A stretch of 64,000 bases of DNA from NCBI GenBank assembly GCA_037833965.1, contig AP031356.1:17878501-17942500 (forward strand), in the 5' to 3' direction. The notes beneath the pieces are model-generated. The model did not search any database, had not been told where the DNA came from, and was given only the letters and a program-made list of their open reading frames with translations. Position numbers and translations under genes: made by a program. The DNA comes from Marchantia polymorpha subsp. ruderalis (taxonomy: Eukaryota; Streptophyta; Marchantiopsida; Marchantiales; Marchantiaceae). How positions within the stretch are numbered: the first letter of the stretch is position 1; every line of letters starts with the position of its first letter. Positions 15,701-64,000 of this stretch are shown in pieces.

Positions 15701-17789
15701 GCCGTTCGTGTTGACCGAAATTTCTAAAGTCACCTATTTTATCTTTTTGAAGCCCTATAATCTCAACACTCTTTCGCCCATGCAACAAAATGTCATCAAG
15801 GAGCTTGCTGCCCTCGGAGTGTTGCAAATCCAGTCGGTGAGTACAAGTTTGTTTCCCTCTGACAGTTTATTGTTGGAAGCTTTGTAAGGCTTTTTATCAT
15901 AATCAGTTCAGTATAAATAGAACATGATGAATAGCTGAAGTTTTGAAAGTACTGTGTACGTATGGAATCCTGAGTTGCTATTTGTTTTACTGTATATAAT
16001 CATCTGATCGATGAGTTGCGGTGAAGATGGCATCTGTTCGTTCGTGCCATTGCTATGAGTATTAGATAATTACTGTATTTTCTTTCCAGAGTGAAAGAAT
16101 CAACTGTTTGTGATTCAGGGTACAAAAGATCGTTGGTTTATTCCAACGAAGTTAGCATCGAACCTTTCGGCAAGCATTTCAGAGACATCTGGTGTGCAGC
16201 CCGGAGAGGTACGAGATCTAAAAAAATTTCTGCTTGAGATGTAGAACCACGTCAACTTTTTGAGGCTTCTGTGACACGATGGTTAATCAGCTGTTGATTC
16301 CTGTAATGCGAAGTGTCCATTGGCATAATTCTGCAGGGTCAGTTGACTAAGCTCATGAGGTTGAATCGCAGTCCAAGGTCCACTTCTATACAGTCAAACG
16401 CAGCACTGTCACAAGTGTTTGTTGTTGATAATCGGATATATGGATACGTAGGGTTCTAAAAGTCTGCTTTACTACGTGCAGGGCTTTGTTGTAGTTGAGA
16501 CTAATTTCAGAATATATGCTTATACAACATCAAAATTACAAGCAGAGATACTACGACTTTTTGTCCGGTAAGAACAAGTGGAATATTTGAAATCAGCTAT
16601 TTCCGTTTGGGAATTTTCGTTCAGCATGTAGTTCTTATCATGGAGTATGAAGGTCTTTCGCTACTCCATCCTATGTCATGTCGAGTGATGAGTAATTCAG
16701 CTTCTATAACATAGCTTGGGTGTGATTCTCGCACGAATGAACAATGCTGCGATTTATTTCAACTTGTTTGCTGTTTTTACATCTATCAGGTTGGAGTACC
16801 AGTTGCCTAATCTCGTCGTAGGGTCTCTAACGAAAGAAAGTGTTAGCACAGCGTTCGCAAGTGGCATCAGTTCAGATGAGGTAATATTCAAATCCATTTA
16901 CAGAGACTTACGACTTCTTTGCAAACCTTCCGTTGTGAGTCGTCTGTCGACAATTTGCTCATCTATCCTTCACTATGATGATTATAATAAAATTTTTACT
17001 GCTGACAGATGATCTCATTTTTGTCAAAACACGCCCATCCGCATGCTGCGAAGAAGACGCCTGTCGTGCCTGAAACTGTTACGGATCAGGTAATTTTGAA
17101 TTGTTTGGCTGGAAGTGAAAGAAAGAAAGCTGCCGAAGTTTAAGGAAGCACGTAACTGTTGTGAGGTTAGACCTTCAATATGCAATATATAAAATATTTA
17201 TTGTTATATGTGTGACTGAAGCATAGAGAAATATCCGTTCAAAATATGTGATCTATTTGGTGTGTGAAGTTGTATGCTGTTTCTTTTTCCTAGGATGAAG
17301 GGTAGCTGACAATGGTGAGATATTAACGCAGATTCGTCTGTGGGAGAACGATCGCAACCGTGTGCAGATGTCTCCTGCCTATATGTACAAAGAATTTCCG
17401 ACTGTGGTATGTGATATGCATCTATCTCTGCAACTTGGTCCTTTTAAGTTTATCCTGAACAGCGGATCATTTGGAACGTTTAACTTTCAAGTATACCAAC
17501 AAATAGAAGTTCACTCTGGAAGAAACGTTCTGTTGATATTATGGACTGGTCATAGTTGTTTATCATAATGAGATTGAATAAAATTCTAGTTGGAAGACTC
17601 TTATGTCTCATCGTTTGTGTCTGGTTCTCAACGCAGGAAACATTTGAAGCAGTCGACAATTATGCTAGGGATATTGGTGCTTTGCTATGGGATGAACCTT
17701 CCACTCAGAGGCTAGTAGGAAAAGCAGAAAGGCACGAAGAGATGCGTAATTTTATTCGTCGCCAAAGTAGTGCGCCCCAACGAAGATGA
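12792..17789 (+). CDS. TFB2: TFIIH core subunit TFB2 (p52/GTF2H4 homologue)
   Basis: TFB2/p52 is a TFIIH core subunit that binds and stimulates the XPB helicase and recruits TFB5, acting in RNA polymerase II initiation and nucleotide excision repair in the nucleus. I could splice 15 exons: 12792-12904, 13531-13698, 13856-13924, 14131-14224, 14472-14581, 14950-14995, 15240-15299, 15500-15568, 15753-15836, 16119-16208, 16482-16567, 16790-16880, 17009-17089, 17332-17406 and 17637-17789. Every junction is GT-AG and phase-consistent, giving 462 residues against about 450 in Arabidopsis. Diagnostic stretches are RSLPPLAKQYVLRLL, DAGFQFLLMDTNSQLW, ELISFLLELGF, DRWFIPTKLASNLS, ETNFRIYAYTTSKLQ and the C-terminal TFB5-binding part ending near MRNFIRRQ. 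The start MPNVRVVSRNF aligns with the expected N-terminus. No truncation or lost core segment is evident, so the gene looks functional. Confidence 0.95.
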
Positions 17790-21475: not shown

Positions 21476-23943
21476 GGAACCCCGTCCCAGTCGGGGCCGA
21501 CTCCGTTTCCCTTCCGTTCCCTTCCATTCCCTTGTGACAGGTCCCCTTCTGTTCCATTGATCCCGCCCGTCACCCTCGCCGTCCGGTCGCTTTGGCGCTG
21601 ACCGGGTTCCGGTAGCATGGGAATTCCGACCCCGTCTGCCGCGGTCCCTTCACCAGCATGACAGGCTCCCTTCTGTCGCCGTGGAGGCCGGCTGGTACCT
21701 GGCTTTCCTGGCTCCGGTGGACTGGGTACTCCCGATTCTTCTCTCGCCACGCGTGATGGGTTTGGTAGTGGGCATCCATCGCCTCATCTCTGAATTCCAC
21801 GCTTTGTTCACATTTGCATAACTATTGTAATTTGTAATGATATATGTAGTAATAGTCAACAGTGACATTGCAACGATGTTCAACGATGATTGTCAGTTTG
21901 ACATAATCTATAGCGACTAAATAATAAATAAACATAAACATTTCTATAGCGAACGAGGACACGTCTCCAAATGTCGCATTAGCTTCACCAACCATGAGCA
22001 CCTGATGAAATAGAGATGGTTATTGGTTCATCAGACATCTTGCCCGTCACTCTGTAAACAGATTGAGAAAAATCCGATAAAGATGTGATTGCTGCATTAG
22101 CATGCAAAATATAGTTCAACTTAACGAGCATTGTCTGTCGTGCCCGGTAAACTTTATTGTATTGTTGGAGATGAGAATGTAAAACATACTATTATCATCG
22201 TCAACATGTCATTAGTGACACGACTGTTACCTTGACTTTGAAGAAGTTCGTCAACAATTTGACTAGGATTCTTTACATAAAATCACAATATCACAGAAAG
22301 ATGGTCATCCACTTACAGTTCAGAAAAAATTGACATCAATAGTCTAACAACATCTCCCGATCTGTAAGATGTTGCAATCCTTTGATCAATATCTTGATTA
22401 AGCATGACATTGGTCAAAGCCAAAACACTGTTGGTTTTCTCAAAGTATATAGACTAATGAGATTGGAGTTAACTAGCTTGCTGGTAATTTATAAACCCAA
22501 ATAACGTTATATTTTGATGATGATCTGCATTTCAAAACCAAAAGTTAGATAAAAAACTGCTGCAACTTCTGCTGTTATTTTTCAATTAGCAATTTAAGAA
22601 ACCAAGCTTAAATGTTATGTTCAAGCTTGTTTGGTAGGAATAAGAAATATAGAGTATTTTAGCATAATTTTCAATTTGACGTGCCAAGTTTAAACAATAT
22701 TCTAGGCCATCTACTTTAAAACCAAATGCTTTGTAATGCAATGATGCTGATTGTAAAATCTTTAATTTGAAGATCTTAAAACTTCACTTTCAATTTTATA
22801 ATTGCAAAAGATATCTCGAGATCTAGAGTTTTAATTTCAACTTGCATATGATGCATCAATGATTGAGATATATATGTATGAATTTCTGAATATTATTCTT
22901 AAATATTCAAGAATTTGACAATGACAATGAGATTTTCATGATTTGTCACTTTTCACTACTTTTCATTGCTTGCACTTTTCTTTTGTCTAAAAAGACAAAA
23001 GACAAGCAATGTCACAATGTCTTACGTTTTTATTTTTGTGTAATATTCCGCTGTTTCACAAATTTCAAAACATGTAATGTTCTTTTTAATTCAATCACAT
23101 GCATTTTTTACTATTAGACATATTCATTGGGCAAAACGATGATATATACTTCAAAAAATGTATTAAAGTAGTATGGAGAAGCAAGAGATTGAATCTTAAA
23201 TCGTAATTGCATATAATTAGAGACTATCTCAAGAATCCTCTTACATGTGTTACTCCTACGTAGCAAGGAGCTCCTCGTAATTTGCTTCACTATTTGGAGC
23301 AAGATTTCTATCAAAGAAAGAGTTACCAATCTTGTATTTTTTGGGTCTTTTCTAATTCAAGTAATTTGTGTTGATTGCATAGTTTAATTTGCAATTTTTA
23401 CACATTTCATATATTCCCTAATGCTATCAAATTGAGCAACTCATCGTGTAGGCATGTATATAACTGAAACATTAACTTTTATTCCTGCATACTAAATATA
23501 TGATTCAATGAACCAACCAAGAAAAAAGTTCATTGTTGTAGAATAAAATAACGGGTACAAATGATAGGATGTTGGATCCAAACTTCAAATTTTTCATATA
23601 TAGTTGAGCAAGAGAATATATGAATCCTAGCAGTACAAGAAATCGCTGGATCCAGGTCCACTACAAGTAAATTCAGAGAATGTTAAAAAATATAAATACA
23701 TTAAAAGACTATATATGTCTAAGTCACCTATCAAAATTGAAAGAAATTTGAACTCAAATAAATGTGGATAAAGCATGTCATCTGATAGACCTCAATGAGT
23801 GGCTTACATGTAATCATTACTAATTATGAAATAAAAGTGACTAAAGTAGTGACAGGGAAAAACGCAATGTATTCCATCCATAACTTGCCGCTACACACAT
23901 ACACTGTGATAGTTCATGGCCCGATGATATGAACCAATGTGCC

Positions 23944-24212
23944 TAGGGATGGGCACGTAGCCGGCTAACTTTCAGCTAGCCGGCTAGCCGATAGTAACGG
24001 CTAGCCGGCTAGGCCTAAAATTTAGCCGGATAATGGACTATTGGCCATCAACCGAAATATTAGGCCAAAATATATGTTTATTGGATAATTTTGGCCGAAT
24101 ATGAGTAAATAATCGGCCGAAAACGTAAATTCGGTCTGGGTTCACGTTTCGTTTTCGGTCTCAGATAGAGGTCTCCAATATTTTACCGTTAGCCGAGCAG
24201 TGCCCATCCCTA
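23944..24212. mobile_element. hAT-type MITE (non-autonomous DNA transposon)
   Basis: The element is 269 bp with 13-bp perfect terminal inverted repeats, TAGGGATGGGCAC at the left end and its complement at the right end. It is flanked by a perfect 8-bp target-site duplication, AATGTGCC, at 23936-23943 and 24213-24220. An 8-bp duplication with TIRs of the (C/T)AGGGRTGGGCA type is characteristic of the hAT superfamily. The interior is rich in AGCCGGCTA-like palindromic pieces near the left end, carries no coding frame and is far too short for a transposase, so it would depend on an autonomous relative. The intact duplication suggests a fairly recent insertion. Confidence 0.93.
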
Positions 24213-55400: not shown

Positions 55401-55920
55401 CCTGTCAGGGACACAAGGCGAGAGAGGCTCGGAGGCTCGGAGGCGGACGGTATCTGATGGGATAATGTGGATGAAGCGCACAGACTTGGTATAAAGAGCT
55501 GCCATGGGGGAATTAGAGTCACAATCCGACGCCTGGGAAGCTAGGAAGTCCGATTGCGATTCTATGCCGCCCTCGGTTCCGATTCCGAGTCGAAGGGTGG
55601 CGAGACTTAGTCCATCGCTGAAACGAAAAAAACTGACTGCGCTCCCTCGTCGATCTGAACAGGTAAGTCCAAGCTGGATGCCTCTCGCACGCCAAGTATA
55701 AAGTGCACGAAGACTCGAGCGAAATTCGCCAAGGCCCGATCTTCTTGGTCGAATCTGTGTGGGAGCCCGATCTTTGTTGTCGAATGAAAACGACGGGAGG
55801 GGTCGGAGAGGTAGAGGAAGAGCTAGGCTCTTCAGGAAAAGAAAAAATTAATTTTCTCACGATAGAATTTTGTTTGTGGGTGTTGGCACGATTGAACTTT
55901 TTTTGTGGGCGTCGGCAGGA
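52439..55920. other. Intergenic, partly GC-rich, FUSC gene upstream region
   Basis: The part to 54,300 shows scattered short frames with no recognised product. From 54,350 to 55,920 GC content is high and frames overlap on all strands, the usual shadow effect. TATA-like TATAAAG boxes occur near 55,489 and 55,696. The ORF at 55504-55701 starts shortly after the first of these and contains a good splice donor (CAG|gtaagt at about 55,662), so it could be a leader exon or upstream ORF of the FUSC gene. A 12-bp hairpin lies at 54654-54687. Confidence 0.4.
54654..54687. repeat. 12-bp perfect inverted repeat
   Basis: ACAACAATTCCC (54654-54665) and its exact complement (54676-54687) surround a ten-base loop. 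It is intergenic, with no terminator-like T-run. Confidence 0.75.
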
Positions 55921-58900
55921 ATGGAGGTTAAGGCCAAGTACGAGGGCGTCATGGCGCGTCTCAAATCCCGCTTGGAATTGTCTCTTTACGGCAAGAGATT
56001 TTTCCAGCGAATGCAGGTGGCGCTGCGAAGTGGATGGGCGTGCTTGTTTGCAGGATGCGTCGTGCAATTCGGCTCGCCCATGAATCACTGGCTGGCCATT
56101 CCCTTCTTCTCTCTAGTCATCTGCCTGAATATCATCGACTCGAGCATTGGCGCAGTTCTGCGAACTTCTGTCAGTGTCGTGGTCGGGATGCTGGAAGCCA
56201 TGACGGCCGGGACTCTCCTTTATTTGATTCTCGGGACCGACATGTCGCTGGTGTTGACCGTTTTTTGCGTCTTCGTCTGCAGCTTCTGCGTAGCTTATCC
56301 GACGAGGCTGGTCGGTCAAGAGATGGCCAGAAAAGTGTCGCTTGCGCTCATAGGAATAATTTTCACGGGCGCATACAATGGAATGAACGACGGGAGCCTT
56401 TTATTTCTCGTCCGACTGATGTGCACGACGATGTTTGGAGTTTTTTGCGCCCTTCTCGCGGTTTGCATTCCAGTTCCCGGGCTAGCCTTTTGGGAGGTAC
56501 TGTCAAGCTTCTCTCCCCTTACATATTGCACTGCAAGCACATTCAGCGCAAACCTCTCCCCTTCCATACTGCTGCTCGGAGTTTCTTCCTCCGACTCTTC
56601 AAATTTTCGAATATGACAAGTTGCTGCTGTAGTTTCGGTTCTTGTGGTTCTCGTGCATTCATGGGTCCAAATAAAGTTCTGCTCCATCAGGTGATTTATG
56701 AAGAGATTCCCAGAAGACCATGGCATTGCGCAAGTTCTGTCCTACGAGATACTCTACCCGCCCTCCTGTGCTAGCCTGGTCGAGAGGGTACTTTTCCCCC
56801 TTCCTTCCTGCCATGGCGAATCGAAAGGGTCCGGAACTTAGCAATCTCTTTATGTTCAGTTCCAGATTACAATGTAGGTTCCTGATTCACAAGCCTTTAC
56901 CTGCAGTCCCGTCATTCCCGTCCATTGACTTGTCGAATCCATAATTCCGTCGCGGCGGTGAAAATGTGATCTGAGCTTGACCTTATTTCATTTCTCAATT
57001 AAGGTGCGGGACAGCGCTAAGTCCACTGTGAAGGGAGCCTCGAAGCTCTACAGGACGTTGACGGAGGCATTTTGCGCCAAGGAAGTGAGCAAGATGTCGT
57101 CAATTTTTCTGCACGCTAAATTCCTGGCGAAAACAGCTGCAATCAGTCTGGAGGATCATAATAATAAATTGGTATGTCGTCACCATTGACAATGTCGATT
57201 CCATACGCGGTGAGATTACAGAGAAAATACAGCAGCCCTGCCTGATCCTTGCAAGTAAGCGGAGAGTTTGTGAACGAGTGACATCGAGAATTGTGTCAGG
57301 TTCTGGCTGGACCTCTATATTCAAGTTATCCATTCTTCATGACGTTGTGTTTTGTACCACCAGGGCGATGCCTACTGGGAGTTGCGAGGGCTGAACATAA
57401 TCCCATCACTGAAGCGGATGACCGAGGGGCTGAATGTGCTCAAACTGCACATGATGGGCATGTGCATGGCCCTGCAGTCAGGACTGATTTTGCAGTACAT
57501 GCCCGGGACGATGGTTGTGATTCTGAAGGACAACTTGAAACGCCTCGTAGATCGCAGCAAGCAGATGCTTGATCTCACAGTGAGGTTGAAGAAGTCCAAG
57601 TCGGCACTGATCCTCAAAGAATCGCTGCTGGAATTGGCTAAGAAAGATCTGAACTCTTTTGACCATACCCTGAAGGAAGCTAGAGAGAAGAGTTACTACA
57701 TCAAGCTCAAAGACGAGGATGAAAGCCTCCACAAGATCATCACCAACGCCAATCCAGAGGAGCAAATCACTGCTGCCGACAAGGGAGTGAAAAACCTCTT
57801 CCAAAGCATGGTGCCCACTTACTTTTTCCTCTTCAACCTCAGACTCTACTACACGGAGACGATGCAGATGCTCGACTGCGGAGAGGTGGCCGACCCCATC
57901 CAAGACATCGGCAACACAAGCTTCCACATGCCCGTGCTGCACCACGAGGTCCAGGACGGGCTTGCCGATACAGTGCAGGTGGTGGTGACTCCCGTGTCCG
58001 AGGAGGAGGCCAGAGAGCCGCTCAAGAATCCCATGCATAGAGCGGAGCATGTAGTTCCTCTGGGCGACGAGAAGGATGCCGGACTAGCAGCAGATCCACA
58101 GCACGCGACGTTCAGCAGGACTCTGTCCAACCCCATCACATTCAAGTGCATGGTGTGCCAGCGCCTGAAGAAAGAGCAGGCGGCCGCAGGACCTCAGGAG
58201 GACATAGCGGATGCTCCTTTGACGTGGTTAGTGAAGCAAGGGTGGAAGCGGTTCAAGCGAGAGCAGGCCCTCAGGGCTTTCAAGGTCTCGTTGGCTATGT
58301 CGCTTGCCGCCCTGGCAGGCTGCATGTACAACGAGGCCTACGCATTCTGGGCCATGGTGTCGGTGGCCTTCATCATGCAGAACCAACAGGGCGGATCGTT
58401 CCGCATGGCTAATCTCAGGCTTCAGGGGACCGTGCTCGGGTCCATTTACGCGTATTTGATGTTGAATCTGATGAGCAAGCATCCCCAGCTGCTGCTCCTG
58501 GCCCTGGTTCCGTGGGTTGTGCTGCTCAGCTATCTTCGGTTCAGCAAACTGTTCGGAGCATCCGGGGTCATCGCCGGTCTGACGGCAGCCATCGTCATGC
58601 TGGGAGCCGAGGGAGGAATGTCCATCCAACAACTGGCGGTTGTCAGGATCACCCAGAATTTTATCGGAGTGCTGGCTCTGATCCTCGTCGAGACGATTAT
58701 CTGGCCGGAGAGAGCAGTCATTTTGTCGAGGAGAGAGTTGGTCTTGAGTTTGATCGACCTCAGGGACTGCGTCAAGGCCGTGGTCGCGGTGTATACCGGG
58801 CATCATTGCCCCGAGCATAGGAAACTCGTGGTCCTGGACATCAAGAAGCTGGAGGGCCAGATTCGTGCCAGGATTGCTGATCAGACGATACTTCAGAGCG

Positions 58901-59646
58901 AGGCGGTGATGGAGCCCGAATTGTGGAGCCATCCGTTCCCGGCAGAAATATATTCCAAGCTGTTGCACATCCAAAGCCGCATGCACGATTTGCTCCACTT
59001 CATGGTGTGCTCGCTGCACGCTGCCACCGAGGAGTGCTTGAGCGAGCAGATTCGCAAGCTGGTGGGCCCTCTCCAGACTTCGCTCGTCGCATTGGAGGAC
59101 GAGGTGCTGTCGTCTCTGCATCTCCTGCAGGAGCTCCTGCAAATCGGCCCCAACACGCTCGATGTCCTGTCCAAGGCCTCGGGCTGTGACGACGAAGAAA
59201 GGCAGTTGTGTCGAATCCCATCCCGTAGCGATAAGTCTTTCAAGGATCTGCGCAAGATGCTGGGGCGAGTGCATCCTCTGCTGGTGCTGGAATGCGAGGA
59301 GAGAAACATCGATGGAACTCCGATGTCCCTGAAGAGAACGATGGATGCCTTCGAGGCCAGCTACGAGCAGGTGGTATCGGGTTTCATCGCCAACAAGAAG
59401 GCCAATCCGGAAGCTTCCATCTTGAGCAACGCTGCCATGCTTTCTTTCAGTGCCCTCACCTTCAGCTTACAGTCTCTTCTGGGCGAGACGGTGGAGCTGG
59501 AAAAGGCAGTGCACGAGCTTCTACACTTCGAGAATCCTTGGAGCGTTCTGGACTTCTGGGAATCCTTTCCAGGTGCGGACGAAGAGTGCCCCATTTGTGT
59601 CAACGCTAATGCGCATGCACCCCACGATCATGCTCCACATGAGTGA
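55921..59646 (+). CDS. Two-block FUSC/ArAE-type membrane transporter-like protein
   Basis: Three exons (55921-56496, 57004-57171, 57364-59646), with GT-AG junctions in phase, give 1008 residues. The N-terminal block (about residues 28-190) has some six hydrophobic spans, including GWACLFAGCVVQFGS, WLAIPFFSLVICLNIID and a conserved TGAYNGMNDGSLLFLVRL. A long charged, largely helical middle (about 190-535) follows. A second membrane block of about six spans (about 540-700) begins RFKREQALRAFKVSLAMSLA and includes YAFWAMVSVAFIMQNQQGGS and LILVETIIWPERA. A helical C-terminal domain ends in a Cys- and His-rich tail (CPICVNANAHAPHDHAPH). This matches plant proteins annotated as FUSC-like or p-hydroxybenzoate efflux AaeB-like, distant relatives of ALMT anion channels. 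Substrate is unknown; export of aromatic acids is only suggested by the family name. ATG 55921 is preferred over the in-frame 55870 because the N-terminal block starts cleanly from it. Confidence 0.9.
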
Positions 59647-60560
59647 ATTGTAAATGCACGACTTCCCCATACCTCCCCCCTGAGTGTACTTTGCGCGAAT
59701 CGGTGAACACTTTGATTGCCACATTCATTTGAGGGCAAATTGCTCCGGAGAAAGCAACGGGCCTGATGTGCCAGCACTCCGAAGTGGAATTGCGGGCGCA
59801 AGCAGTGCTAGATCTTCTCTACTATACTGTACAATAGAGATTGGAAAAAATGCTACAGATCGATTACGTTGCAATTTTGTATCATACAGTTGGCTCGCAA
59901 GGGTAGTGCACGTTGTTCAATTTTGAGCTTGTAACAACACATTATGGATATATATGTACGAGAGGACACAACCTCGAAGTCATAAAAATTCATATATACA
60001 TATAAATAAATAAATATTCGGGCTGTCGAAACTTCAATTCTACAGCCGTATATCACACGAAGCAATGTTTGGTTGTTTATCGAGTTGAAGTAAAAAGATC
60101 ATTACCAAGTTTCATCAATCAGTGTCTAGAATTTAGTTGCAGCAACTACCACATCTGGTTAGTGGTCGTCTGTACTTTTACACCCCTCTACTATCCATAC
60201 ATCCTGGCCATGCAACGTCCTCTGGTCCCCATTCAAGGAGGGGACTTGCAGGGTATATACTGTTTCTCTTTCACGTCGCTATACTCCGGCCCAATGTGCA
60301 TATATCTGCAAATTTGCCCACCTGTCACATTTCACATGATATTTAATGTGCAACAATTAGATGTTTCAGATAAAATCTCTCTAGCCCTCAGCTTCGACGA
60401 ACTATTTTAGCGAAATACTTGTAGGGCTAATTGAAAGTACTTGTCAAATGAAGCCAATCTCTGTGATTTCTACTCTTACTAAAGACTGAGGCTCAAAGCA
60501 ATTCTAAACCATCATCTCAAGAGAATCCGAGTAAGGAGTTGCAATTAGGACTTACTGAAG
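59647..60560. other. 3' flank of FUSC-like gene
   Basis: Probable 3' UTR, with overlapping AATAAA-type signals near 60,003-60,016. The remainder holds only short chance frames. Confidence 0.5.
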
Positions 60561-60993
60561 TGCCTGCTCACCCTAAAGTGAGCCCTGCTGCTAACATGGT
60601 CGAGATGTGCGTATCCACGACTGAGTGCTCCTTGGAAACGCCCAAGTCCGCTAATTTGGCGACCAGATTCTCATCCAGCAGGATATTGGCCGCTTTCACG
60701 CCTCTGTATCTGAACGACAGGTGGGTCCTGCACATGAGCACATCAGCCTCCGACTGCGAACAATATCGAATGAACTTGGAGGTGGTCGGACTCAACGAGT
60801 TGTTTTCACCTACCAGATGTGAATAGCCCATGCAATGGGTGAAAAGAATTCTTGTCGGTGAAAAAAAATTCAGTCTGATTATGCTCCGCTCAGCCTCTGC
60901 ACCAAACTGTCTGCCCAGTTTCACAAAATATGTTTCATCATCTTCTTCTGAGACGCCAGCCAGAGGCATGTGATACCTGTAGAAGTTCCTCAA
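60561..60993 (-). pseudogene. Decayed receptor-like protein kinase fragment
   Basis: An open minus-strand stretch carries part of a plant receptor-like kinase domain. HCMGYSHLVGENN corresponds to the usual H-x-MGYC-x-VGEN region before the hinge. VKAANILLDENLVAKLADLG corresponds to subdomains VIb-VII. It continues VSKEHSVVDTHISTM before the frame leaves the expected GTLGYLAPEY activation segment. The catalytic HRD is replaced by YRG and the DFG by DLG, and sequence between the hinge and the catalytic loop is corrupted. The ATP-binding lobe and everything after the activation loop are absent, and the frame has no ATG. It is best read as a relic of a malectin/LRR-type RLK, not an active gene. 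Confidence 0.75.
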
Positions 60994-61736
60994 TAAAGCT
61001 CGTCCAGACTACTGCATTAGACTTCCTGCACTTCATTCTGTCCTACAGCGGAAGCAGGGACAAAGTAATAAGCAAGGTACAGGTCTAGCGAGTTTTAACT
61101 TTTTGGTCCAAATACAAGATTGTACCAAAAAGACAGATTGTGTAAAACTGTTTCATATGCTGATCAGATCTTGCTGAACTGCACGTATATAATTTACATG
61201 CATTTGTCGTTTCTTTCAATTACCGCCTGCATCTAGATACTTAATGGAACTACGGGAATCAAGCAACAGGATGCTCAAGCATATTATCACACATAGTTTA
61301 TGGAAGGAAGAAACTCAACAAATTCAATTCACCGTGAGGTGTTTCATCAACTCAGAGATGACGCACAGAAGACAATGATAGCAATTATCTAGAATGAGAT
61401 CGAAACCAGACAATACGCCGTCTGGACTTGCGGATCACCAAGTATCCGGATATTTCAAACTAGCTCACAGATCACAAAAAGCCGCCAACATCTGAACAGT
61501 GGAGAATCAGTGCGGCGGTGACAGGACTCAAGAGACCGAATTCTTGATCGAGAGAAGCCGGTGAGTCTTAAGTTCGTTGGCTAAGCAGAAGAGAGCTCTC
61601 GAGAAAAAGACATCAGAAATAAATGTTGATGGTGGAATGTGCGCAAAAGTAAGTGTCTTTACGATGTAGGTCAACCGTACACTGCAAAATAAGGGAAAAT
61701 CTGTTAGAAATCAAAGAGACCTATTCTCTGAATGGA
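60994..61736. other. Intergenic, nothing recognised
   Basis: No convincing frame is seen. The sequence left of the foldback cluster includes possible remnants of the upstream kinase sequence, but no motif is identifiable. Confidence 0.45.
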
Positions 61737-61779
61737 CCAAGAGTCCACAGAGGCATGTGATGCCTCTGTGGACTCTTGG
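61737..61779. repeat. Foldback 1: 20-bp perfect arms, 3-base loop
   Basis: Left arm CCAAGAGTCCACAGAGGCAT (61737-61756) and its exact complement at 61760-61779, separated by GTG. As RNA either strand would form a 43-nt perfect hairpin. This is too short for a typical plant miRNA precursor. Confidence 0.93.
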
Positions 61780-61952
61780 CGTTTCTTATTACAAACCCAC
61801 GAGCTTGACATCGATGAACAGGTTTAATTCATGTTAATTACACTCCAGTTCATCAAAAAGCACTAGACTCTAAGATCGACATAAGAAGCATTTTGACAAC
61901 TTTCTATACGAAGCGAATGAGTCCGGGAAGATGTCGTTTATTATCTGATCAG

Positions 61953-61995
61953 GCCGCATCGAGTTCAGCATCCTCCGATCGAGTTCAGCATCCGA
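61953..61995. repeat. Short direct repeat ATCGAGTTCAGCATCC
   Basis: The 16-base string ATCGAGTTCAGCATCC occurs twice within about 40 bases in the same orientation, separated by a few bases. Confidence 0.8.
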
Positions 61996-62032
61996 GTACT
62001 CCAATTTCGGGTGGTACAACACCTCTGATCCG

Positions 62033-62104
62033 TTTATTGCAGCAATAAGGACAATCCAAATCGAAATGATGTTCGATTTGGATTGTCCTTATTGCTGCAA
62101 TAAA
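62033..62104. repeat. Foldback 2: 33-bp perfect arms, 6-base loop
   Basis: Arms 62033-62065 and 62072-62104 are exact reverse complements over 33 bases around the loop ATGATG. The outer ends read TTTATTGCAGCAATAAGG, and the inner ends CCAAATCGAA. No mismatch is present, so the structure is either very young or maintained. Confidence 0.95.
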
Positions 62105-62266
62105 TAGTATACTCAATCGGTCGGTCAGTTGTACACATGCACATCGACAGTTCTGAGTACACATTGCAAGTGCTTGAAAATTACACGGTGAAGTTCCAAC
62201 TCCCACGATAATGAGGATGTAATTTTGCTGTTCCCTGAGCTGATACCACAACTCGTGCGTAAGTCG

Positions 62267-62325
62267 CGCTTCAAATTGAATTACTGACCACGCGTTTCGC
62301 GTGGTCAGTGTTTAAATTTGAAGCC
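62267..62325. repeat. Foldback 3: 12-bp perfect core, imperfect outer arms
   Basis: The core ACTGACCACGCG (62283-62294) pairs with its exact complement (62298-62309) across loop TTT. Pairing continues outward imperfectly, with GCTTCAAATTGAATT on the left and TTTAAATTTGAAGC on the right, for a total arm of about 28 bases. Confidence 0.88.
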
Positions 62326-63064
62326 CGAACGTTTCGCTGTCCAGATGTTCTGCGGAAGAGTTTCACGGGAAGTCTGAGTTTCGCAGGAGCCCATAGCCCC
62401 AAGAGCATACGTTGGACAAATACCGATGGTTCCAAAGTTTCATCAAACCTAGCGCATCATCATGAAGGCAACGCACGCCCAGGCGTATATTGCAACGGTG
62501 ACATCTCTCCAGGAAATATCCCCTTCCACTTGCTATTTGATTCTTTCTTCGGACCCCTTGAATAATAGAATTGTAGAGCCAGTGCTGAGAATTCCTACAT
62601 TAAAATCCATACGAATGTTATGTACTTTTCCACATCTAAATTAGAGTCAGCTGTCACGATATACTTGAATCTTGAAATTCGCAGGATAAACGAGAGTTAG
62701 TTCCAAAAGCTGGGTCCAAGAAACGCACACGATTGTTTTGCAGAGCTTAAGCTATGAACTACTGCCCCAAAAGCACAGGCATCGAGTACTTTGGCAGGCA
62801 AAAGGGCGAAAAGCATCCGAGTTGCAAAATCCACCTGCAACAGGCGGGTGATGACGGCTTCAGCTGCGCCAGTTATACTCATCAAGGTAGCCAGCGCCTC
62901 ATTGTCGACGGCCCCATTTCCCTCGCCAGCAACCTAAAGCATCTAGCGGCGACTGAAAATCCGACAATTCTCAGGTGTGGGCAAATCTTTCAACTATCTG
63001 ACTTCCTGGACGCGGAAACCGATCCAGAACTGCGCCAAGGATCCAAACTCATAACACCACCGGC
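62326..63064. other. Region between foldbacks, uncertain frame
   Basis: The plus-strand frame 62754-63146 (130 codons, ATG start) covers much of this stretch and ends inside foldback 4. It shows no recognised domain and I do not call it a gene. Confidence 0.4.
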
Positions 63065-63140
63065 GTGTGCCCTTTCTCCGGTACCCTTTTCCTCGCTAGA
63101 GTCACTCTTGCGAGGAAAAAGATACAGAGAGAGGGCACAC
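63065..63140. repeat. Foldback 4: about 31-bp imperfect arms
   Basis: Left arm 63065-63096 (GTGTGCCCTTTCTCC...TTTTCCTCGC) pairs with 63110-63140 (GCGAGGAAAA...GAGGGCACAC), with about five mismatches and one bulge around a 13-base loop. It is an older or more diverged member of the cluster. Confidence 0.85.
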
Positions 63141-63305
63141 TCTTGAGTCACAGAGGTCCGCCACAATCGGTGATGTAGAATGTGAGTGCAGAGCTCAGCA
63201 CTCAGATTCTAGATCAAGGAATGAGAGATTCTCTTACGTCTGTCAATTTAAGCTCGGGCTGATTGATGGTAGCGCCCGAATCCGTTTTGCGATGTGATCC
63301 CCCCA

Positions 63306-63362
63306 CACGTACAATTCTGAGGGCAACTGTCTGATAAATGTTTGCCCTCAGAATTGTACGTG
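63306..63362. repeat. Foldback 5: 21-bp perfect arms
   Basis: The left arm begins CACGTACAATTCTGAGGGC (63306-63326); its exact complement lies at 63342-63362, with a 15-base loop. Confidence 0.93.
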
Positions 63363-63536
63363 GCGCGGAATCAATGAATGGCGCACTGTCGGCGTCACTG
63401 ACAACATTTCGAAATATCATTAAACGTTGTTCAGCGCATTCAACGTTGACAGATTCAAACGCTATTCAAATCTGTGAGTTACAATTACGGGTTTGAACGC
63501 GTGTAAATTTTCTTCCACTTTTGGCTACGCGGGAGA

Positions 63537-63560
63537 AACTTGTATAAATGCACCGGCAGT
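63537..63560 (+). promoter_or_regulatory. TATA-box-like promoter candidate
   Basis: ACTTGTATAAATGCACC contains a good TATA match (TATAAAT) followed about 30 bases later by a CA-rich CTCACGG initiator-like region. No coding frame is seen downstream within the window, so if used it would drive a transcript through foldbacks 6 and 7. Confidence 0.3.
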
Positions 63561-63717
63561 CGTCACAATTCACACTCTCACGGACTACAGTTCAGCTGGC
63601 ACTTGTGACCTGCACGGTAGACCGTACCTCCGAGCTGCAATTATTTTCCTGAGTACAGGAATAAGTAAATAACCAAATAACTGAACCTGCTTGTATTTCT
63701 TCTATGACTTGACTTTT

Positions 63718-63802
63718 TTGGGTTCTTTTTCTCCCTATGTAACCAAGGCTACATCGCACGAGAGGATGTAACCTTGGTTACATAGGGAGAAAAAGAACCC
63801 AA
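63718..63802. repeat. Foldback 6: 31-bp perfect arms plus inner stem
   Basis: Arms 63718-63748 and 63772-63802 are exact reverse complements (outer end TTGGGTTCTTTTTCTCCC). After one mismatch a further six-base inner stem (TACATC with GATGTA) closes on the nine-base loop GCACGAGAG. The whole 85-base unit is an almost perfect hairpin. Confidence 0.95.
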
Positions 63803-63863
63803 TGAAACTTCATCGCTCTCGTGCATTCTATGAGAATCGCACAAGAGCGATGAAGTTTCATTG
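63800..63863. repeat. Foldback 7: 25-bp arms with one mismatch
   Basis: The left arm at 63800-63824 begins CAATGAAACTTCATCGCTC; its complement at 63839-63863 differs at one position. The loop (ATTCTATGAGAATC) can itself fold as ATTCT/AGAAT. It abuts foldback 6 with three shared bases, and its left-arm end CTCTCGTGC is the exact complement of the foldback 6 loop. Confidence 0.94.
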
Positions 63864-64000
63864 CAAGAAATGCAATGAGGCTTTTCTTAGGTGTAGTAAG
63901 TTGCACTCATGAAAGCAAAACTACTCTCTGCGCCGGGTGTTGGACTTCAATGAAAGATGCCAAAAACAGATTATAAGTTTTCCTTATAGACAAGAGTGAC
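63864..64000. other. Right end of window, nothing recognised
   Basis: Continues directly from foldback 7; a further small repeat TTGC-AAGAAAT-GCAA overlaps its end. The window edge cuts off any further structure. Confidence 0.4.

Follow-up and report, generated by a model that had tools for sequence, protein, structure and literature searches.

Nine foldbacks are packed into 5.1 kb of contig C7, seven of them within 2.1 kb, and these structures are very probably the scars of short-range template switching. Template switching had already been proposed in the preliminary description of the window, which is the whole 64,000-nucleotide stretch of DNA analyzed here (C7:17878501–17942500), and two signatures bear the proposal out. 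In three of the three testable foldbacks (of nine in total), the left arm is inherited and the right arm is an inserted inverted copy; in addition, the loop of foldback 3 is inverted among the copies of a tandem array that carries the cluster. The arms differ in age, indicating that the cluster was assembled stepwise and then amplified. The single events are of a known kind, and the density of foldbacks is unusual, as judged on the 113 kb of sequence compared.

The foldback cluster and its density

Seven inverted repeats were confirmed at the positions first described, 61737–63863 (2.1 kb, given here on the plus strand). Foldback 1 (61737–61779) consists of 20-bp arms that are 100% complementary around a loop of 3 nt, and foldback 2 (62033–62104) of 33-bp arms, also 100% complementary, around a loop of 6 nt. 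Foldback 3 (62264–62328) has 31-bp arms (87%) and a 3-nt loop. Foldback 4 spans 63065–63140 as a whole, with arms of approximately 38 bp, an imperfect middle, and a loop of 1; it comprises a core (63081–63125, with 22-nt arms, 86%, and the same loop) and an outer stem, in which 63065–63078 pairs with 63127–63140. Foldback 5 (63295–63373; 32-bp arms, 88%, 15-nt loop) contains a core at 63306–63362 that is perfect over 21 bp. Foldback 6 (63718–63802) has 38-bp arms (97%, one mismatch) with a 9-nt loop, and foldback 7 (63800–63863) has 25-bp arms (96%, one mismatch) with a 14-nt loop, in which ATTCT and AGAAT pair internally. A looser scan revealed an eighth, decayed foldback on the plus strand at 63171–63216 (23-bp arms, three mismatches, loop 0), while the ninth is located 3 kb farther on, past the end of the window, at L009:2824–2882 (26 bp, one mismatch, loop 7). 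The preliminary description was right that seven foldbacks are present and unrelated in sequence, but not that most of them are perfect: whole-arm perfection is found in only two of the seven, and the other five have arms that are 86–97% complementary. Its size ranges (arms of 20–33, loops of 3–15) were also too narrow, with measured arms reaching 38 and loops running from 1 to 15. Between foldbacks 1 and 2, a 16-base direct repeat, ATCGAGTTCAGCATCC, is present in two copies 20 bases apart (61958–61993).

To score inverted repeats, we counted +1 for each match and −3 for each mismatch, with loops of at most 20. Five matches in 61600–64000 score at least 14 (34, 33, 21, 20, and 15), and none of 200 dinucleotide shuffles of this interval reaches 14, the best scoring 11. 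Seven matches of at least 14 were found in 113,392 bases of comparison sequence, which is a convenience sample that includes 9 kb of the array unit itself. Four of these lie in window positions 1–55430 (18, 15, 15, and 14, the best one AT-rich), and the others are a match in L021 (14), an AT repeat (14), and a true foldback (22). The last is the ninth foldback, which is part of the array unit that holds the cluster. With loops of up to 40, the remaining window contains five matches scoring 14–18, three of which are AT-rich. Analysis of predicted folding energy (RNA parameters, plus strand, 100-base windows, 12 mononucleotide shuffles each, pooled SD) gave z < −6 in 13 of 96 windows of 61600–64000 and in 2 of 121 of 64000–67100, the latter representing the ninth foldback. 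The corresponding counts are 4 of 2218 in 1–55430 (one at 16126 and three at 23926–23976), 0 of 246 in 55431–61600, and 0 of 1740 in the other controls. The foldback cluster is real, beyond chance, and rare in the 113 kb of other sequence compared. The sole further stretches with z < −6 in window positions 1–55430 are 16126–16225 and 23926–24075, and the second of them holds CTAGCCGGCTAGCCG foldback arms.

Amplification of the cluster in a tandem array

Genome searches over the 241.5-Mb assembly (nine contigs) revealed nine occurrences of the segment 61600–63999 on C7, arranged head-to-tail at steps of approximately 11.67 kb, with the exception of one step of 16.6 kb, which results from an insert of approximately 4.9 kb in unit 3. 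Together with a 184-kb self-comparison, these searches placed array unit 1 at 55431–64000 on the plus strand, running on to approximately 67095 in window-based coordinates. The array consists of nine near-identical units of approximately 11.67 kb and a partial tenth, and extends to approximately C7:18048700. The foldbacks matched full-length in all nine assembled units. The preliminary description had argued that the foldbacks are not one amplified repeat, which holds for the hairpins, mutually unrelated as they are, but not for the cluster, the whole of which has been amplified in the nine-copy array.

Each unit carries one FUSC-family frame (57352–59646 on the plus strand, 764 aa; Pfam FUSC, E = 3.8e-18 for the window copy). 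The frame is kept in eight of the nine units, where 763 or 764 of 764 residues are identical, and is broken in unit 3 by the insert. This insert (L010:7043 to L011:1933) contains an open frame that spans at least 618 aa and has no Pfam match. Five substitutions fall within a single 0.5-kb part of the FUSC frame (58608–59101) in unit 2 alone, and may mark a gene-conversion tract. Besides the FUSC frame, the gene content of the window includes a peroxidase and a kinase fragment, a set that would suit a land plant.

Comparison of the nine units revealed 23 variable alignment columns from 57701 to 67095, of which four fall in an AT repeat, four at the ragged end of the alignment, and 15 elsewhere. 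This count drops the columns before 57701, some of which hold genuine differences of unit 1 from the remaining units, because the insert makes the unit 3 alignment non-homologous before approximately 57700. Three adjacent columns among the 15 form the loop of foldback 3 (62295–62297), which reads TTT in units 1 and 4–9 and AAA in units 2 and 3. AAA is the exact reverse complement of TTT, so that the loop is inverted in two of the nine units; since units 2 and 3 are neighbors, one inversion event suffices, with no direction implied. Loop inversion of this type is a documented signature of template switching and represents a recent event. Within the foldbacks, one other column varies, namely 63071, where an arm of foldback 4 has either C or A. 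The foldbacks make up 586 of the 9395 bases of the compared span, and with one further variable column they show no excess of change, the loop of foldback 3 aside. No loop differences were observed at the other foldbacks among the nine units.

Homologous blocks and single-arm states

The foldback-bearing patch is composed of fragments with homologues elsewhere in the genome, all described here on the plus strand of the window. The block at 60973–61734 is homologous to C6:29150354–29151111 (95%), and its right end is 3 bases from foldback 1. An 18-base direct repeat (94%) is found at both ends of this block (60961–60978 and 61748–61765), with its second copy inside foldback 1; it is possibly a target-site duplication, or else a remnant of the block's arrival. 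A second block, at 62530–63147, is homologous to C2:25511835–25512430 (90%) and ends at foldback 4; BLAST extends this homology to 63110, and the last seven bases, to approximately 63147, were matched by eye. The third block, at 63495–64000 and on to 64513, consists of pieces homologous to C6:4255952–4256772, with identities of 84–90% for the three longest pieces and 70–93% for all pieces. At that C6 locus, the homology spans the region before a lectin-like frame and the start of the frame, which has a ricin-type lectin match below the curated cut-off. A piece of 110 bases (66982–67091), located 100 bases past the ninth foldback, matches another C2 frame (L046), which resembles an F-box gene; as this homologue begins only beyond the ninth foldback, it shows no earlier state of it. 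In the genome searches, with the best candidates scored, 61740–62520 and 63130–63500 had no homologue outside the array, and 59600–61000 matched only the partial tenth unit. Likewise among the best candidates scored, no match outside the array extends over a foldback, with the exception of the C2 homologue of foldback 4; the C6 matches flank foldbacks 6 and 7, with single arms visible in the alignment pieces.

The C2 homologue (90%) of foldback 4 reads ...GTGTGCCCTCTCTCC...CCTCGCAAGAGTAACTCTTGAG and has one arm only, which terminates in CAAGAGTAACTCTTG, folding as a 6-bp hairpin. Past this seed hairpin, the window repeats the arm in inverted form (GCGAGG...GGGCACAC), and TCTTGAG follows. In comparison to C2, the window contains 35 extra bases, followed by GAG as in C2, and 31 of the 35 inserted bases (GCGAGG...GGCACAC) form an imperfect reverse complement of the sequence just before them. 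With C2 as the reference, foldback 4 carries as its right arm an inserted inverted copy of the left, and the foldback looks like the product of an extension primed on the seed hairpin and a subsequent return to the original template. The return has thin support, because the C2 homology stops after the seven bases TCTTGAG. By manual count, the two arms differ at eight columns, at four of which C2 agrees with the left arm and at four with the right, so that the direction of copying comes from colinearity alone. Only one column was counted manually at which both arms share a change relative to C2. This single shared change and the even split indicate that the event is old, and foldback 4 is about as old as the separation of the C2 and window loci.

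In the C6 homologue, the left arms of foldbacks 6 and 7 are present in colinear order and the right arms are absent. After each inserted arm, the window is colinear with C6 again, as expected if synthesis went back to the original template. Around foldback 7, an imperfect hairpin with a 10-bp stem (GTATTTCTTG/CAAGAAATAC) is already present in C6, so that the near-perfect hairpin of the window seems to be a perfected quasi-palindrome. Where C6 has the left half of this outer stem, the window has the right arm of foldback 6 instead, suggesting that foldback 6 formed after foldback 7. Inspection by eye shows that the loop sequence of foldback 6, GCACGAGAG, repeats in inverted orientation the tip of foldback 7's left arm, so that the switch was a multi-step one and not a single clean one. 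No seed was identified for foldback 6, and over its left arm the C6 piece, which contains gaps, reaches only 70.5% identity. Five differences from C6 are common to both arms of foldback 6 (manual count), and the arms disagree with each other at 1 of 38 positions, suggesting that this foldback is younger than its block, unless the arms were later homogenized.

In two of the three testable cases (foldbacks 4 and 7), the switch point coincides with a short inverted repeat that existed beforehand. All three have the copy as their right arm, as if one rightward-growing strand had folded back each time, with three cases being too few for certainty. We infer that the single-arm sequences represent the older state. 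The other six foldbacks have no homologue showing an earlier state and are presumed, by analogy, to be of the same origin.

Origin of the foldbacks and comparison with known systems

In the mechanism that we favor, DNA synthesis would stall and the new 3' end would fold back, in two cases on a recognizable short pre-existing hairpin. The strand would then copy itself for some 20 to 38 bases before synthesis returned to the original sequence, so that template and inverted copy came to stand side by side. Such events would have recurred on separate occasions among the degraded gene fragments of a patch adjoining the FUSC-family gene. Amplification then carried the finished cluster, together with this gene, into the tandem array, and in at least one hairpin a later switch has inverted the loop. 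The enzymology was presumably either a template switch at the replication fork or the repair of a broken end by folding back and end joining, two routes that leave the same scar and that the data do not separate.

A narrower form of the template-switch explanation, compatible with the favored one, is that the same scars arose from the repair of broken ends, in which gene fragments of other chromosomes were captured, the ends folded back, and joining was carried out by NHEJ or polymerase theta. The patchwork and the hairpins would then share a cause, which we regard as possible but doubtful. This explanation accommodates the patchwork of homologues on C6, C2, and C6 again plus the short C2 piece, and the location of foldbacks 1 and 4 at block ends. 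It also accommodates the stop of homology seven bases past foldback 4 and the arm divergence of foldbacks 1 (0 of 20) and 4 (approximately 8 of 38), which fits the ages of their blocks (95% and 90% identity). In one yeast study, cells with low RPA or without Rad27 are described as making more templated insertions, both local and distant (PMC11724301). However, a block encloses foldbacks 6 and 7, colinearity is restored behind each of them, and they look younger than the block (1 of 38 and 1 of 25 differences between arms, in comparison to a difference of 10–16% in the three longest block pieces), unless their arms were homogenized. Break repair or microhomology-mediated replication is favored for foldbacks 1 and 4, because they are at block ends and may date from the arrival of their blocks, and ordinary template switching for foldbacks 6 and 7, because they are within a block and younger-looking.

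The hairpins are improbable as young MIRNA or siRNA genes, that is, as loci transcribed, diced into 21–24-nt RNAs, and kept by selection. Arms of 20–38 bp with strong predicted folding would suit such genes, but several loops of only 0–3 nt and one stem of 20 bp are short for a plant MIRNA precursor, and some stems are decaying by mismatches. Arm 21-mers, one each from foldbacks 2, 5, and the ninth, had no genomic match outside the array with up to two mismatches. A 21-mer of foldback 1, searched with up to three mismatches, had two matches on C8 compared with three for the reversed control, which is chance level. The search of Rfam families gave a single match in the window, a distant tRNA. 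Nothing in the sequence points to a function for the foldbacks, and the alternative raised in the preliminary description, a dense source of double-stranded RNA or small RNAs, finds no support in it. RNA hairpins are described as possible products of template switching (PMC8794818); such an origin is therefore compatible with a function, which could be acquired later. It is more improbable still that the foldbacks are small mobile elements, of the MITE or foldback type, inserted singly. A shared architecture and the location of two hairpins at the ends of blocks with homologues elsewhere would agree with insertion, but the sequences are unrelated, and an inherited local arm is found in three of three testable cases, which already contradicts insertion for these three. 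Moreover, the four arms searched (foldbacks 1, 2, 5, and the ninth) have no other genomic copies bar the chance-level matches of foldback 1, and both mobile hairpins and direct copies of one repeat were rejected on this result. Near-identical tandem arrays are hard to assemble, yet an assembly or read-foldback artifact is equally hard to credit, given arms of 20–38 bp with sequence running on at both sides, the occurrence of the foldbacks in all nine units, the decay of arms, the difference in one loop among units, and homologues that give sensible earlier states.

Beyond the template-switch origin of the individual foldbacks, we tentatively consider, at less than even chances, that the interval is a lasting template-switch hot spot, in which the same 2–5 kb repeatedly gained near-perfect hairpins over a long time from a local cause (a replication barrier, a fragile site, or foreign-fragment capture). 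If so, the interval would serve as a nursery, now multiplied ninefold, whose ready-made hairpins could give rise to small-RNA genes.

Among known systems, ODIRA yields inverted copies and differs in this respect from the array described here, which is head-to-tail. The two are alike in that template switching is tied to copy-number gain (PMC10766183). Short-range template switch (quasipalindrome) mutations are described from yeast, great apes, and rRNA genes (PMC8604942, PMC7954356, PMC8794818, PMC5677150). In the yeast accounts, template switching is given as the cause of 2–5-base spacer inversions on perfect inverted repeats, with some spacers flipping more than once (PMC8604942), and palindrome-mediated insertions are reported for rad27-deleted cells in a paper that also treats hotspots for changes (PMC5677150). 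The foldbacks share with these mutations the local inverted copy seeded on a short palindrome, the homogenization of arms, and the exact inversion of a spacer; there, however, the accounts describe mostly single events spread over genomes or genes, whereas here nine lie in 5.1 kb and were then amplified. Foldback insertions of approximately 5–34 bp are also reported at breaks in yeast, where low or mutated RPA increases local foldbacks, and captures of distant sequence become more frequent in RPA mutants and in the absence of Rad27 (PMC11724301). They resemble the present foldbacks as templated inverted duplications, mostly of approximately 5–34 bp, that are primed by microhomology and accompanied by distant capture, but the break is induced in yeast and hypothetical here, where some foldbacks lie inside blocks. 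No title among the matches listed from the open-licence literature names a plant cluster of this kind, which we do not take as absence from print. What the cited sources report of template switching is mostly isolated events, deduced from comparisons between species. The present locus offers several events of different ages at one place together with homologues showing the prior state, and the near-identical copies of the recent array act as replicates, in which one loop inversion has been caught. The hot-spot clustering of such mutations and the supply of new hairpin RNAs thereby become testable in a plant.
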